NCBI GenBank assembly: GCA_029266635.1 | Contig: JAQSWM010000005.1 | Location: 124,001 to 188,000, forward strand | Length of the DNA stretch: 64,000 nt | Origin: Sphingobacteriaceae bacterium | GTDB taxonomy: Bacteria > Bacteroidota > Bacteroidia > Sphingobacteriales > Sphingobacteriaceae | Direction: 5' to 3' | Shown: in pieces, positions 46,542-51,715 of the stretch | Numbering within the stretch: the first letter of the stretch is position 1 | How the letters are laid out: every line of letters begins with the position of its first letter | Notes under the pieces: model-generated | Databases searched by the model: none | What the model was told of the DNA's origin: nothing | The model's input: the letters and a program-made list of their open reading frames with translations, nothing else | Program-made: the position numbers and the translations under genes

Positions 46542-47462
46542 CTACGATAGTGGTTCCGGTCCAGGAGCATTGCCCGCCGGCCTTGACTTATCCTCAGGCA
46601 GGGGTATAAATTCTTCGTTATCGTTTGGCGGCAACAAAATGCGCCCTTGCTTCCAATCTTCTTTTGCTTGCTCAATGCGTTCTTTGCGAGAAGACACAAA
46701 ATTCCACCAGATGAATCGGTTGCCCAAAGGCTCTCCGCCTAAAACCATCAAAGTAGCTTGTTCTTTAGCAGTGATGATTGGATCAGCGCCTTTACTAAAA
46801 ACAAGCATTTTCCCCTGGTTGTATGTAACGCCGGATAATTCAATGCTGCCTTTAACGATGTAAATTCCTCTTTCCGAATGTTCTTTTGGCAAAGCGAACT
46901 TGCTGCCCACTTGTAAAACGACGTGCAGGTAAAACAAAGGCGATGCTGTTTGTACATCATTTCTTAATCCGTAGGCATTCCCCGCAATAAGGCGCATCCA
47001 AATATCTTTGTCCGTATAAACGGGAAGCTCTTCGGGAGCATAATTAGTAAAAGACGGTGCAGCTTCTTCATCTTTTTCAGGAAGCGCCACCCATGTTTGT
47101 ATCATCTCCAAACCTCCGGAAAGTGAAGCAGGATCTTCAAATCTTTCGGAATGTGCAATACCGCTGCCAGCTGTCATCCAGTTTACTTCGCCCGGACGAA
47201 TGATCTGCTCAACACCCAAACTATCCCTGTGGGTCACCTGTCCGCCAAATAAATAACTTACTGTAGAAAGCCCGATATGAGGGTGGGGCAATACATCGAG
47301 GTTAGAAGGGGCAGAGGATATAGCTGTTACAGGGCCCGCATGATCCATGAAGATAAAGGGGCCAACCATTCTGCGCTCGCGGAAAGGCAGAATTCTTTTC
47401 ACTTTCATTTCTGCACTGATGGCGGCATCACGAGCTTCAATAACTATCTCAAGCATGGGCAT
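46542..47462 (-). CDS. Pirin-family bicupin protein
   Basis: A 306-residue cytoplasmic bicupin. The first cupin has GPFIFMDHAGPV and the metal set HPHIGLSTVSYLF, then HSERFEDP; the second cupin has a degenerate site. Bacterial pirins can have quercetin 2,3-dioxygenase activity and respond to oxidative or redox stress. It is the last gene of the minus-strand run headed by the Crp/Fnr regulator, 43 bases after the esterase gene. The ATG at 47462 begins MPMLEIVIEARDAA; the next Met is two codons in. Confidence 0.9.
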   Translation of the reverse strand: MPMLEIVIEARDAAISAEMKVKRILPFRERRMVGPFIFMDHAGPVTAISSAPSNLDVLPHPHIGLSTVSYLFGGQVTHRDSLGVEQIIRPGEVNWMTAGSGIAHSERFEDPASLSGGLEMIQTWVALPEKDEEAAPSFTNYAPEELPVYTDKDIWMRLIAGNAYGLRNDVQTASPLFYLHVVLQVGSKFALPKEHSERGIYIVKGSIELSGVTYNQGKMLVFSKGADPIITAKEQATLMVLGGEPLGNRFIWWNFVSSRKERIEQAKEDWKQGRILLPPNDNEEFIPLPEDKSRPAGNAPGPEPLS

Positions 47463-47505
47463 ATTTTTAGAAAAATTTAAGCCTTCGTTTTGTACAATAA
47501 CAAAC

Positions 47506-48177
47506 TTACGATGCTTTCTTCAGCCAATCGTTTAAATCGTCTATCACTTCACTGTTAATCTGATGTCCGATATTGTATTCTTTGTAGCTCAACTGAACTT
47601 CTAACGTTTCCAGGTATGCCTTTGCTTCTCTTGCATACGCAACCGGTAGCGTGCCATCATGTGTTCCATGTGCTACAAAAACTCTCAGTTTCTGAGGGTA
47701 TTCATCTTTACTAAGTACTGGTTTAATCTCATCAAGTAACCTGCCGCTTAATGCGATCACACCTGTTACCTTCCCGGGATGTGAAAGTCCAGTTGTATAG
47801 CTCATAATGGCACCCTGGCTGAAGCCGCCCAGATATATTTCATCAAGAGCGTATTCTTCTTTTACCTGTTCTATAATTGTGCTGATAACCTCTCGGCTGG
47901 ATGCCTCCTGTTCTTTATTATACAAAGGCTTCCCTGTTGAAAAATCAACATTGTACCACGCATATCTGTCGGGAGCTAACGTAAACTGTCCACGTGGTGC
48001 GATGATATAATAATCGGATGGAAGCTGGCCTTCGAGGCTAAACAGATCCTGTTCATTGCTGCCAACACCATGAAGTAAGATGATAGCCTTGTTAGCTGCA
48101 GTTTTAACCTGTGGCTCACGAACAAGATATTGCAAAGTCCCCTTGCCATGCGCTTCATTGCTAGTTGTGTTTTCCAT
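47506..48177 (-). CDS. Alpha/beta hydrolase, MhqD/phospholipase-carboxylesterase type
   Basis: A 223-residue serine hydrolase. HGVGSNEQDLFSL carries the oxyanion loop, YLGGFSQGAIMSY the nucleophile, FVAHGTHDGTLP the acid and NIGHQINSEV the catalytic His. It resembles Bacillus MhqD and bacterial carboxylesterases induced by quinones. The ATG at 48177 (MENTTSNEAHGKG) is chosen; a longer frame begins with the ATG at 48237, overlapping the stop of the dioxygenase gene (TAATG), which is also possible for coupling. It is part of the run regulated from near 50916. Confidence 0.88.
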   Translation of the reverse strand: MENTTSNEAHGKGTLQYLVREPQVKTAANKAIILLHGVGSNEQDLFSLEGQLPSDYYIIAPRGQFTLAPDRYAWYNVDFSTGKPLYNKEQEASSREVISTIIEQVKEEYALDEIYLGGFSQGAIMSYTTGLSHPGKVTGVIALSGRLLDEIKPVLSKDEYPQKLRVFVAHGTHDGTLPVAYAREAKAYLETLEVQLSYKEYNIGHQINSEVIDDLNDWLKKAS

Positions 48178-48236
48178 TTCAATTCTTTTACTATGATGAT
48201 TTACCGGGATAGCATCAGCAAAAAAGCTGACGATCA

Positions 48237-49118
48237 TTATCCCAGTTTAACTGATGTCATGGTGAGGGAACCTGCCACTGTTTTATCATTGAAAAAAGAA
48301 GTTGTGTCATTGCTTCCCTTTAAGCCTAAAGTGTACATTAATGGCAGATAGTGCTCCGGCGTAGGTACAGCAAGGAGGGCTTCTTTTCCTATTGTCTGAT
48401 AATTAATTAGCGGGTTATAGTCGCCATCTGCTATTAATTGCTTGAACTTGTCGTTCATCTGCAAAGCCCAATCATAACCATATTGCTGATCGTTTAATTT
48501 GTCCCATGCTGCCATGCGTAAATTATGCACCATATTTCCACTGCCAATAATCAGCACTCCTTTTTTGCGTAACGCATATAGCTCTTTAGCCAGATCGTAG
48601 TGATATTGCGGGCCTTTGGTGTAATCAATGCTCAACTGCAGCACCGGGATGTTTGCATCGGGGTACATGTGCCTGACAACTGTCCAGGTGCCATGATCCA
48701 GCCCCCAGTCATGATCCAATTCAACATGAGCTGAATGCAACAACTCAGCGGTTTCTTTCGCCAGTACAGGGTTGCCCGGTGCAGGATACTGAACTGCAAA
48801 CAACTCCTTTGGAAAGCCTCCGAAATCATGAATGGTTTCAGGGAAGTCCATAGCAGTGATCTTTGTTCCCTTGGTAAACCAATGCGCTGATACAACCAAC
48901 ACAGCTTTCGGCGTCGGGGTTTCTCCAGCCATTTGTATCCATCTCCTGCTAAACTCAGTGTCTTCTATCCCGTTCATCGGTGAACCATGGCCCACAAACA
49001 GAACCGGCATTAATGCCTCCTGCTCGGCTAAGCCACTTGTGAATCGATTGAATGCTGATAATGTCGTCATGCCTATTGCTCCTGTTATAAACGTTGTTAA
49101 AAATTGCTTCCGATCCAC
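48237..49118 (-). CDS. LigB/YgiD-type extradiol dioxygenase
   Basis: A 293-residue member of the class III extradiol (4,5-DOPA dioxygenase) family that opens catechol-type rings. Metal histidines are in LFVGHGSPMN, VVSAHWF, WGLDHGTWTVV and GSGNMVHNLR. N-terminal MDRKQFLTTFITGAIGMTTLSAF is hydrophobic, signal- or anchor-like, without a twin arginine, so the enzyme may be exported or membrane-attached, unlike E. coli YgiD. The start is GTG at 49118, 11 bases after the DoxX stop. The substrate is uncertain. Confidence 0.9.
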   Translation of the reverse strand: MDRKQFLTTFITGAIGMTTLSAFNRFTSGLAEQEALMPVLFVGHGSPMNGIEDTEFSRRWIQMAGETPTPKAVLVVSAHWFTKGTKITAMDFPETIHDFGGFPKELFAVQYPAPGNPVLAKETAELLHSAHVELDHDWGLDHGTWTVVRHMYPDANIPVLQLSIDYTKGPQYHYDLAKELYALRKKGVLIIGSGNMVHNLRMAAWDKLNDQQYGYDWALQMNDKFKQLIADGDYNPLINYQTIGKEALLAVPTPEHYLPLMYTLGLKGSNDTTSFFNDKTVAGSLTMTSVKLG

Positions 49119-49129
49119 CTGCCGATAAA

Positions 49130-49600
49130 TTATCGGGCAAGTAGACGGGCTGCATCTTCTGCTTTGTTAGCCGGTGTGACTGGTGTGAGTTTGGGCTGCA
49201 GCAAATAATCTATAGAATACTTGCCGCTGCCTGCAAACAGTAATGTGCTATAAACGAGCAGGTATTGAAGTGCCGGTTCCTTTACAGATAGTGGATCGGC
49301 AGCGTGAATTAAGAATACTGCTACCAGCATTGTAACTGCCAGAGGGATAGCCGCCAGCCGGGTTCCAAATCCAAATAAAAGGAACAGCGAACAAAACACT
49401 TCTGCAAACACAGCCAGTGCTAAGGAGAAGCTTGCACTCATTCCCATAACTGATGGGAATTGTACGGGCTCTCCGGAAAATAACATTAATAATTTGGGGA
49501 TGCCGTGGGTAAGCATCAGTGCTGCAATTGCTACTCGTGCTATAAGCAGGCCTATATCTACTGCATTTGAGGTTTGATTAACCGATAATATTTTTTTCAT
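49130..49600 (-). CDS. DoxX-family membrane protein
   Basis: A 156-residue protein with four TM helices (about 16-36, 56-76, 80-100, 112-130), the DoxX plan, with ARVAIAALMLTHGIPKLL in the first. DoxX relatives CatD and MhqP in Bacillus are induced with quinone-detoxifying dioxygenases. Here it lies between YceI (11-base gap) and an extradiol dioxygenase (11-base gap), which repeats that association. A quinone-related or thiosulfate:quinone role is not established for this protein. Confidence 0.92.
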   Translation of the reverse strand: MKKILSVNQTSNAVDIGLLIARVAIAALMLTHGIPKLLMLFSGEPVQFPSVMGMSASFSLALAVFAEVFCSLFLLFGFGTRLAAIPLAVTMLVAVFLIHAADPLSVKEPALQYLLVYSTLLFAGSGKYSIDYLLQPKLTPVTPANKAEDAARLLAR

Positions 49601-49611
49601 GTCTTTATATT

Positions 49612-50187
49612 TTATTGTTTGATAAATTCTCCGTCTGCTTTGATGCGTACTTCATCGCTAATCACAGCTTCAGGGAAGGATGGGCCTACGCCGAAATCAG
49701 AACGTTTGATGGTCCCTGTAACCTGGAAACCCGAAGTTGCCTTTTTGCTCATCGGGTTTTCAACTGTTCCTGTATAAAGCAAGTCTAGTGTTGCCGGTTT
49801 TGTTACACCGTGAATGGTAAGATCACCGCTTAGTTTATACTTGTTTTTACCTGCTTTCTTGATGCCTGTACTTTTAAACGATAAAGCAGGATACTTTCCT
49901 GCATCGAAGAAGTCGGCACTTTTTAGGTGATTGTTTCGTGCCTCTACTCTGGTATCAATAGATGCTGTTTTGGCTGTCAGCTCGAACTTTGCATCTGAGA
50001 AATCGGGTTTTGCTGATGTTACTTTAACATCGATATCGTTGAATGTGCCCGACACATCATTAATGCCAAGATGCTTTACTGTAAATGCGAGCTGTGAATG
50101 CGGATCATCATTTTCCCAGGTTCCAATGCCCGTTGTAAATGCCGTTAATAAAAAGAATGCGGAGAGGATGATTGTTAGTTTTTTCAT
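49612..50187 (-). CDS. YceI-family periplasmic polyisoprenoid-binding protein
   Basis: A 191-residue exported lipocalin-like protein that binds isoprenoid chains such as those of quinones. The signal peptide is MKKLTIILSAFFLLTAFTTG. The mature barrel has DPHSQLAFTVKHLGINDVSGTF, ASIDTRVEARNNHLKSADFFDAGKYPALSFKS (family core) and GDLTIHGVTKPATLDL, with a typical C-terminus, FPEAVISDEVRIKADGEFIKQ. It is second in the cluster, 45 bases after the oxidoreductase gene. Confidence 0.94.
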   Translation of the reverse strand: MKKLTIILSAFFLLTAFTTGIGTWENDDPHSQLAFTVKHLGINDVSGTFNDIDVKVTSAKPDFSDAKFELTAKTASIDTRVEARNNHLKSADFFDAGKYPALSFKSTGIKKAGKNKYKLSGDLTIHGVTKPATLDLLYTGTVENPMSKKATSGFQVTGTIKRSDFGVGPSFPEAVISDEVRIKADGEFIKQ

Positions 50188-50232
50188 TGTTTTGATTTTT
50201 TGAATGAGATAATTTATTTGTTCTTGAATAGA

Positions 50233-50895
50233 TTAGTTGTGTAATATTTTCCAGCCTGCTAACCAGTTGTAATTGTACTTTATGCCTAATTGGATTAGCA
50301 GTAACTGCATATTTTCTAAGGTTCTGCTTACTTTCAGATCACCGGCTACAATCGGGTTGAATCCTGCTGTTTTCACCAGTTCAGTAACTGTGTTTACGGC
50401 TTCTTCATCATTCCCGGCAACAAAGGCATCTGCCTGTTTTCCGTCGATAACCGGAGTGGCGAAATCGGCTGCGAAAGTTGTATTGAAAGCCTTTACCACT
50501 TTTGAATTGGGCAAGAGTTTCTGCAGTTGTTCTGCAGCACTGGTATCAGGTGCAGTAACCAGCCCATCGTAGTTTTCGTTCAGCGGATTAGCGATGCTGA
50601 TCACAATTTTCTGATTGGCTACTTCCTTGATTTTTTCTGCTATTTCTCTTTCTGCCTGGTAAGGGACAGCAAGGATGATAATGTCAGCTTCCCAGGACGC
50701 ATCTGCAGGACATTCGAGCGCCTCTACATCGGCGGATGAGTTGCTATTCTTGATATCGTTCAGAACTGCTTCTGCCTTTTCCTTTTCATTTCCGAAAAGC
50801 AGCACCCTGTTGTTGCCTCTTGAAAGGTTCTTAGCGATGTTGGAACCCATATTTCCGGTTGCCCCTATTACTGCTATTGTTTGCTTTGTATTCAT
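50233..50895 (-). CDS. NADP-dependent oxidoreductase (F420-reductase-like Rossmann protein)
   Basis: A 220-residue cytoplasmic protein with the dinucleotide fold IAVIGATGNMGSNIAKNLSR at the N-terminus. ADIIILAVPYQAEREI and KVVKAFNTTFAADFATPVI complete the NADP oxidoreductase coenzyme F420-dependent family (NAD_binding/F420_oxidored) pattern. The second substrate is unknown; Bacteroidota lack F420, so a different hydride acceptor is likely. It is the first gene after the promoter/operator at 50916-50986 and heads the six-gene enzyme run. Confidence 0.88.
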   Translation of the reverse strand: MNTKQTIAVIGATGNMGSNIAKNLSRGNNRVLLFGNEKEKAEAVLNDIKNSNSSADVEALECPADASWEADIIILAVPYQAEREIAEKIKEVANQKIVISIANPLNENYDGLVTAPDTSAAEQLQKLLPNSKVVKAFNTTFAADFATPVIDGKQADAFVAGNDEEAVNTVTELVKTAGFNPIVAGDLKVSRTLENMQLLLIQLGIKYNYNWLAGWKILHN

Positions 50896-50915
50896 TTTCT
50901 TTGTTTTTGATGATA

Positions 50916-50923
50916 CAAAGGTA
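50916..50923 (-). promoter_or_regulatory. Promoter -7 element of the oxidoreductase/YceI/DoxX run
   Basis: The minus strand has TACCTTTG, an exact TAnnTTTG match, 20 bases before the ATG at 50895. A -33 element is not clear, which fits activator-dependent transcription from the palindrome at 50967-50986. Confidence 0.6.
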
Positions 50924-50966
50924 CAGGGGTGCAGAGGCCCGTTCCATTACGTTTGGACAAGAAAAC

Positions 50967-50986
50967 CCATTGATTTTGGTCAATGG
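50967..50986. promoter_or_regulatory. Crp/Fnr-type palindromic operator
   Basis: CCATTGACCAAAATCAATGG (minus strand) is a 7-6-7 perfect inverted repeat. Its core TTGA-N6-TCAA has the half-sites and spacing of the FNR site TTGAT-N4-ATCAA. It lies between the Crp/Fnr gene stop (51001) and the promoter at 50916, centred about 65 bases upstream of the predicted transcript start, a normal class I activator position. Confidence 0.7.
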
Positions 50987-51000
50987 AAAATCGGTAAGGG

Positions 51001-51582
51001 TTATTTGCGGGAGAAGATCCGGCTTCTGATCCGGCTTAGTGTTTCGGGCGTTAACCCCATGTAAGAAGCGATCATGTGCTGTGGTACCCGTTGGGCAATA
51101 TCCGGGTAGGTTGTAGTAAAATGTTTATATCGCTCTTCGAGCGGAAGGCTTATGATAGAAGTAAGCCGCTTTTGTAAGGCGATGTAAGCACCGGTAATTT
51201 GCAGGCGGATATAGGTTTCGTACTTGGGCAGTTGCTGTAGTAATTCTTCGTGGGCTGCCTTGCTGATCAGGATTAATTCAGAGTCTTCAACTGCATCAAT
51301 ATTGTAAGTAGCAGGCTCGCCTGTCAAGAAGCTGTAAAGGTCAGAGATCGTCCAGCCCTCCAGTGCAAACTGAACAATGTGCTCTGTTCCGCTTTCATCC
51401 ACGGTGTAGGCTTTCAACGCACCCTTTTCTACAAAAGCAATGTGCTTGCATACATCGCCATCCTGGAGCAGGTATTGCTTTTTACGTAGCTTTTTGGGTG
51501 TGAGAAACTGCTTAATTAGCCCTTCTTCTTCCTTTGTAAGAGAAACCTTATCGCGAAATTTTTGGAAGAAGACTTCGTACAT
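51001..51582 (-). CDS. Crp/Fnr-family transcriptional regulator
   Basis: A 193-residue regulator. The N-terminal cyclic-nucleotide-binding-like barrel (about 20-130) reads KQYLLQDGDVCKHIAFVEKGALKAY and DLYSFLTGEPATYNIDAVEDSELILIS. The C-terminal winged helix has PQHMIASYMGLTPETLSRIRSR, with the recognition helix near 175-185. It has no Cys cluster like E. coli FNR, so an iron-sulfur sensor is unlikely; the effector is unknown. The ATG at 51582 (MYEVFFQKFRDKV) is preferred to a TTG-type extension five codons upstream. It precedes the enzyme run on the same strand with a 105-base gap that holds a Crp/Fnr-type palindrome. Confidence 0.93.
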   Translation of the reverse strand: MYEVFFQKFRDKVSLTKEEEGLIKQFLTPKKLRKKQYLLQDGDVCKHIAFVEKGALKAYTVDESGTEHIVQFALEGWTISDLYSFLTGEPATYNIDAVEDSELILISKAAHEELLQQLPKYETYIRLQITGAYIALQKRLTSIISLPLEERYKHFTTTYPDIAQRVPQHMIASYMGLTPETLSRIRSRIFSRK

Positions 51583-51715
51583 GTTGCAAAGATGCAAAGA
51601 ATAAAGCCAAAGGCTGTAACGTACTGTACAGCTGGGGTAAACGATTGAAGCCGCCGGGATAATTTTGCACTCGCTTCCCGGTACGGTATAGAGGAAGATT
51701 GAATAGCTGTATTCT

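Follow-up and report, generated by a model that had tools for sequence, protein, structure and literature searches.

A conserved tandem Crp/Fnr-type operator in the predicted promoter that separates a Bacteroidota regulator gene from probable detoxification genes

The window analysed here, the whole of a 64,000-nucleotide stretch of a Sphingobacteriaceae genome, contains a gene for a Crp/Fnr-superfamily regulator (P0001) and, exactly 105 bp beyond its end, an oxidoreductase ATG that opens a run of enzyme genes, an arrangement that raises the question of what this gap (50896-51000, minus strand; CCCTTACCGATTTTCCATTGACCAAAATCAATGGGTTTTCTTGTCCAAACGTAATGGAACGGGCCTCTGCACCCCTGTACCTTTGTATCATCAAAAACAAAGAAA on the gene strand) does and which protein reads it. 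The reading proposed here, to which a probability of roughly 0.7 is assigned, is that the gap acts as the regulated promoter of the six-gene run (50895 to 46542) and would be controlled by the adjacent Crp/Fnr-type regulator. In the direction of the genes, the regulator and the elements of the gap are the following:

51001..51582, minus strand: Crp/Fnr-superfamily regulator P0001, 193 aa, recognition helix LTPETLSRIR
50967..50986, minus strand: box 1, distal operator dyad, a perfect 7-6-7 palindrome (read from the sequence and the locus alignment)
50958..50965, minus strand: conserved T-rich tract between the boxes, TTTTCTTG (from the conservation profile; part of the context of box 2)
50947..50960, minus strand: box 2, proximal operator dyad, TTGTCCAAACGTAA, of the form TTG-N8-TAA (from the locus alignment)
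50916..50923, minus strand: Bacteroidota sigma-A -7 element, TACCTTTG, of the form TAnnTTTG (sequence and alignment)
50911..50912, minus strand: predicted transcription start, from the placement of the -7 element in F. psychrophilum (PMC9723704)

Box 1 reads CCATTGA-N6-TCAATGG, an inverted repeat without mismatch whose core TTGA-N6-TCAA occupies 50970-50983, and box 2 lies downstream of it at a pitch of exactly 23 bp. The family consensus of box 2 is TTG-N8-CAA, of which the window carries a degenerate copy with five of the six core bases. The -7 element starts 60 bp from the start of box 1 and 37 bp from that of box 2, and the start predicted from its placement would leave a leader of about 16 nt. 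A preliminary description of this DNA had already placed the palindrome at 50967-50986, with its TTGA-N6-TCAA core, and an exact -7 element at 50916-50923, and both are found on the minus strand just as it said. It had also taken the palindrome for a single operator; the Crp/Fnr-type character of the site holds, but the site does not stand alone, since the second dyad at 50947-50960 had been overlooked. No canonical -33 element (TTTG/TTG) is seen where the promoter in the window would carry one, and a contact of the alpha-CTD with the T-rich tract is possible.

Chance was estimated from dinucleotide shuffles of the 105-bp gap, in which a perfect 7-6-7 repeat appeared in 1.2% and TTGA-N6-TCAA in 0.56% of cases, and in which box 1, box 2 and the -7 element at their fixed spacing never came together (0 of 20,000 shuffles). 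Across the 3.6-Mb genome the 20-bp palindrome occurs once without mismatch, with one further site at one mismatch. The bare TTGA-N6-TCAA core is found twice in the window, where 1.9 copies are expected, and a search for short palindromes with three mismatches was uninformative (129 matches against 96 in controls). The palindrome by itself is thus moderately unlikely to have arisen by chance, which is suggestive and not decisive; therefore, related genomes were compared, and it is the comparative data that decide.

A search with an alignment of the regulator yielded 80 loci, distributed over Chitinophagaceae, Sphingobacteriaceae, Pontibacter, Dyadobacter, Spirosoma, Flavobacterium and others; one of them (L055), cut by a contig end, was left out, so that the 80 regions compared comprise 79 usable loci and the window. 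The tandem site precedes an enzyme gene in all 79 usable loci, which span many Bacteroidota families, and the comparison of the same intergenic region that the preliminary description had called for thus comes out in favour of its operator. The aligned regions after the regulators show TTGA-N6-TCAA, followed at exactly 23 bp by TTG-N8-CAA, with TAnnTTTG at a distance of 60 (or 59) bp from box 1. A perfect TTGA-N6-TCAA lies within 340 bp after the regulator in 73 of the 80 regions, and the other cases are a dyad with one mismatch (7 of 8 bases; L084 and L109), a GTGA/TCAC dyad (L118), a site further down than 340 bp (L065) and sites that precede rearranged or divergent genes (L102, L106 and L111). 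Among 63 non-redundant loci, the second box stands at +23 in 59 and the -7 element at +59/60 in 49, with ten more having it at +83; in 500 shuffled sets, the largest count at any offset was five for the second box and two for the -7 element. The ten loci at +83 have three boxes (Niastella, Dyadobacter, Paradesertivirga and others), and there the -7 element is shifted by exactly one 23-bp step, while the distance from the start of box 2 to that of the -7 element is 36/37 bp in nearly all loci. Moreover, strict tandem sites are concentrated after the regulators, with 77 in 41 kb of such DNA against 8 in 912 kb of other DNA from these loci, and those outside it lie, where gene maps were checked, before OXR genes, which encode the same oxidoreductase as the first gene of the run, or in rearranged loci.

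Three stacked boxes at 23-bp steps are present in L044, L069, L070, L073, L075, L080, L082, L083, L086, L088, L092, L101, L103 and L107. At L046:8370, L096:7429 and L098:7376 the operon contains a further tandem site, which would form an extra regulated promoter; the first of these sites lies directly 5' of an internal OXR gene.

The pattern of tandem boxes and -7 element can also find such loci without any protein information. When 395 genomes of the class were scanned, it matched 14 times, against none for the reversed pattern used as control, and 12 of the 14 sites adjoin a family regulator and/or genes for a LigB/4,5-DOPA extradiol dioxygenase (DODA), OXR, pirin, YceI or old yellow enzyme (OYE)-type proteins. 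One site (L130) falls within a ribosomal-protein operon and is regarded as a chance match; another (L134) stands before a gene that was not recognised, some 600 bp beyond a further family regulator of the same genome (G034:C1:1060255). The sites L124, L125 and L132 precede DODA, and the fetched stretch of about 3 kb contains no regulator; for L132, the orthologous regulator is found at another place in the genome (G020), together with a site of its own (L137). Within the genome of the window, no further full tandem site was found at up to three mismatches, and the regulator therefore looks local. Autoregulation was not adopted, as no dyad was found upstream of the regulator gene.

Evidence on which protein reads the boxes comes from the recognition helix. 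In CRP, residues R180 and E181 correlate with the half-site bases G3 and A6, and a Ser or Pro in place of R180 is accompanied by T3 (PMC1274295), a rule that P0001 follows, with P-E-T-L-S-R at the code positions and a TTGA dyad. To extend this, 228 distinct family regulators were collected, 114 of them with a site at canonical spacing. Where the position of CRP R180 holds Arg, the dyad contains G in 15 of 15 cases (11 of them GTGA-N6-TCAC), against 0 of 99 where it holds Pro, Ala or Lys (Fisher 5e-19), and the outer base of box 2 is likewise G in 12 of 15 Arg-type cases and in 0 of 98 others. The Fisher value overstates the independent evidence, since the Arg residues trace to five inferred changes on the tree, only two of them on strongly supported branches, and a sign test on independent pairs (two supported pairs) is not significant; the same minimum of five changes applies to residue and base, and the rows agree in every case. 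As far as sequence can show, the neighbouring regulator would thus read both boxes. Arg-helix paralogs (L165, L198, L215, L250, L258, L264, L278, L286 and others) use GTGA-N6-TCAC tandem sites at the 23-bp pitch, often with GTGA-N6-TCCT as the second box.

These data also bear on what else the palindrome could be. It could represent the intrinsic terminator of the regulator gene, with an 8-bp stem followed by TTTTCTTG, instead of an operator; it was flagged by a terminator scan, its predicted RNA hairpin has an energy of -9.7 kcal/mol, and several orthologs carry GCATTGA-N6-TCAATGC followed by TTTTTCTTG. However, with z = -1.6 the hairpin is weak, the site keeps to the enzymes rather than to the regulator, both at the orphan sites L124, L125 and L132 and where the regulator is rearranged (L106, L111 and L102), and neither the fixed 23/60-bp spacing nor the covariation of residue and base makes sense for a terminator. 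Termination as the main role is hence barely credible, and it was rejected on two grounds, namely that the site is still found with the enzymes where the regulator is missing or has moved, and that residue and base covary; the palindrome may still serve as a terminator in a secondary role. It is likewise very improbable that the boxes are read by another Crp/Fnr protein, such as a paralog or a global regulator, with the neighbouring gene being incidental. The genome does encode a second member, 43% identical to P0001 (C5:330002), and a distant third, but the helix of the second member differs (FTPEYLSEIR), the dyad was not found beside its gene, and the dyad base and the helix of the adjacent regulator covary. 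The gene of this second paralog (L002, G000:C5:330002-330505) is followed by an AhpD/carboxymuconolactone-decarboxylase-like gene with a TACCTTTG element of its own.

The preferred reader, P0001, has a cNMP-binding beta-roll domain at its N-terminus (PF00027, E 7e-16, with the AlphaFold2 model and Foldseek in agreement), and its model (pLDDT 95) has the CRP/FNR fold, with the beta-roll, a long dimer helix and a C-terminal helix-turn-helix formed by helices 168-174 and 179-191. The model ends right after the recognition helix and is without the C-terminal wing of CRP, and no Pfam HTH model passed 0.001 for this protein. The recognition residues E180, S183 and R184 (E..SR) are nearly invariant. 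P0001 is not a CRP by family assignment, scoring 30.4 bits against 266 for the equivalog PRK11753, and the CRP half-site TGTGA is replaced here by TTGA, with Pro replacing Arg in the helix. It also falls well short of the NCBIfam model of FNR (38 bits, cut-off 228) and, although the half-site TTGA-N6-TCAA and the overall fold are shared with FNR, it is shorter, wingless and devoid of the four-Cys [4Fe-4S] motif. C45 is its sole cysteine, which bears out the view of the preliminary description that the regulator has no FNR Cys cluster and supports its corollary that the signal is not a [4Fe-4S] cluster of the E. coli type. Cys45 is conserved in 73 of 80 orthologs and in 96 of 118 other family members, and the 7 orthologs that lack it mostly keep the operator; a role as a thiol/quinone switch was not adopted, given that the residue is equally common in other family members and the operator is mostly kept without it. 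The closest solved structure is 3DN7, a cyclic-nucleotide-binding regulatory protein of Cytophaga hutchinsonii (phmmer 4.9e-40; Foldseek TM 0.93 on the target), which shares the wingless length (194 aa) and differs from P0001 at the DNA-contact residues of its helix (TPEYLSEIR). We know of no functional study of 3DN7. The regulator gene has a -7-like element of its own, CATCTTTG, within 51583-51600, about 4-5 bp before its ATG, and its mRNA may therefore be leaderless or nearly so.

Downstream of the gap, six genes run in the same direction with intergenic gaps of at most 45 bp:

50233..50895, minus strand: NAD(P)-binding oxidoreductase (OXR), F420_oxidored/NpdG-like (domain and family search; below the npdG cut-off)
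49612..50187, minus strand: YceI-like protein with a hydrophobic N-terminus resembling a signal peptide (domain search)
49130..49600, minus strand: DoxX family membrane protein (domain search)
48237..49118, minus strand: LigB/4,5-DOPA extradiol dioxygenase family protein, DODA (NF007914, above cut-off)
47506..48237, minus strand: phospholipase/carboxylesterase, Abhydrolase_2, with weak similarity to MhqD (domain search)
46542..47462, minus strand: pirin, the last gene of the run (domain search)

The esterase scores 28 bits against the MhqD model, whose cut-off is 325. In the 75 loci whose downstream sequence was long enough, the gene tally was OXR (59), DODA (44), YceI (34), DoxX (23), SDR (12), MhqD-like (11), FrnE-like thiol proteins (11), OYE (8), NmrA (5) and pirin (4). 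The products of the run are probably detoxification enzymes, and from this enzyme set we would guess, by analogy, at a response to quinones, catechols or other electrophiles.

The position of the boxes suggests how the promoter may work. In F. psychrophilum the TAnnTTTG box maps to -12 to -5 (PMC9723704), and the start predicted from this placement puts the centre of box 2 at about -42.5 and that of box 1 at about -65.5, or at -41.5 and -64.5 where the offset is 59 or if the -7 element is placed one base closer. In E. coli, sites of class II are centred on -41.5 and those of class I on -61.5 (PMC5957442), and by its predicted position, at the fixed distance from the core promoter near -41.5 that marks this class, the proximal box would therefore be a class II site. 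The distance of some 65 bases between palindrome and start given in the preliminary description is thereby retained, but its assignment to class I is not, as the palindrome becomes the upstream partner of a class II box. In the mechanism proposed here, regulator dimers would occupy two stacked dyads of 14 bp each at a pitch of 23 bp, of which the distal one, TTGACCAAAATCAA, is near-perfect and presumably of high affinity, while the proximal one, TTGTCCAAACGTAA, would overlap or replace the place of the -33 element. The distal dimer would help the proximal dimer to load, the latter would contact RNA polymerase in class II fashion and activate a promoter that has no canonical -33 element, and binding of a ligand or a modification in the beta-roll domain would switch the regulator. 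Taken on the comparative data, it is very likely that the predicted regulatory switch is real, and binding of the regulator to both dyads is strongly supported; activation of the enzyme operon, which follows from position only, is probable.

The same operator could act with the opposite sign, with repressor dimers over the -33 region blocking RNA polymerase until they are released by an inducer, as with MhqR, YodB and QsrR. Box 2 does overlap the -33 region, and the functionally similar mhqRED operon of S. aureus is under repressor control (PMC6798810). Repression is nevertheless unlikely, because the fixed spacing of 36/37 bp between box 2 and the -7 element and the placement at about -41.5/-42.5 are what class II activation needs, whereas repressors tolerate looser placement; moreover, no canonical TTTG/TTG is present at -33 in the promoter of the window, and a stronger distal box is odd for simple occlusion. 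A different doubt concerns the signal, which could be nitrosative or low-oxygen conditions, as for FNR, DNR and HcpR, rather than electrophiles. FNR structures are the closest PDB fold matches after 3DN7, and TTGAT/TTGAC half-sites are used by FNR and some HcpR proteins (PMC1274295). On the other side, a single cysteine means that there is no FNR cluster, the operon contains no hcp, nor or nrf genes, and the 75-locus tally is one of OXR, DODA, YceI, DoxX and the like, so that a signal of this kind seems decidedly unlikely.

Read as an activator site, the system resembles several known ones and differs from each of them. With class II CRP/FNR promoters of E. coli it shares a dimer site near -41.5, the NTGA-N6-TCAN geometry and recognition by an E..SR helix, and it differs in having the Bacteroidota -7 element (TAnnTTTG) instead of -10/-35 elements and a second or third dyad at an invariant 23-bp pitch; the tandem sites of E. 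coli class III and deo promoters lie near -40 and -90 (PMC5957442), unlike the 23-bp array. HcpR proteins also lack the FNR Cys motif, some of them use TTGAC-N4-GTCAA, and they obey the same rule linking residue 180 to base 3 (PMC1274295), but hcp is absent from the operon, which sets it apart from HcpR systems, and the sites of Bacteroides HcpR2 are GTAAC-N4-GTTAC. In Firmicutes, responses to quinones and catechols place ring-cleavage dioxygenases and the carboxylesterase MhqD under MhqR, YodB or QsrR (PMC6798810). The regulons of MhqR, YodB, CatR and QsrR have in common with the present operon, through analogous families, a ring-cleavage dioxygenase, a carboxylesterase of the MhqD kind, DoxX and a dedicated local regulator; however, the regulators there are MarR or DUF24 repressors and that here is of the Crp/Fnr type. 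The operon resembles the Firmicute quinone regulon but does not belong to it, as its regulator comes from another family and its enzymes are analogues.

In this family, genomes of Bacteroidota often carry five to twenty Crp/Fnr paralogs or more, and a broader proposal, which we hold at about even odds, is that the operator seen in the window is standard for wingless Crp/Fnr proteins that form a large and expanded clade in this phylum, in which two or three dyads at exactly 23-bp pitch stand at a fixed distance from the -7 element and paralogs are insulated by one helix residue (Pro/Ala/Lys with TTGA, Arg with GTGA). No Bacteroidota Crp/Fnr system or operator of this kind was found in the literature searched, and an earlier description is possible. 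Whereas Crp/Fnr operators and tandem sites in general are already known, the 23-bp stacked array tied to the Bacteroidota -7 element, its use across a paralog family and the natural switch of specificity are, as far as we can tell, new. If the proposal is true, it would describe a way of Crp-type activation that is specific to the phylum and whose targets include dedicated electrophile-detoxification operons. Operator, geometry, recognition code and a recurrent enzyme regulon are here defined by sequence alone, which allows targets to be predicted for many of these regulators; the family offers a natural set of specificity variants and a well-specified system for how a Crp-type activator works on Bacteroidota -7/-33 promoters.

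The cassette of regulator and enzymes (46542-51582) is closest to that of Sediminibacterium soli (Chitinophagaceae), with amino acid identities of 87% for the regulator, 85% for OXR, 85% for YceI and 89% for DODA, against about 72-82% for the best match in Sphingobacteriaceae, the apparent own family of the genome, a similarity that suggests either horizontal transfer or a wrong family call.
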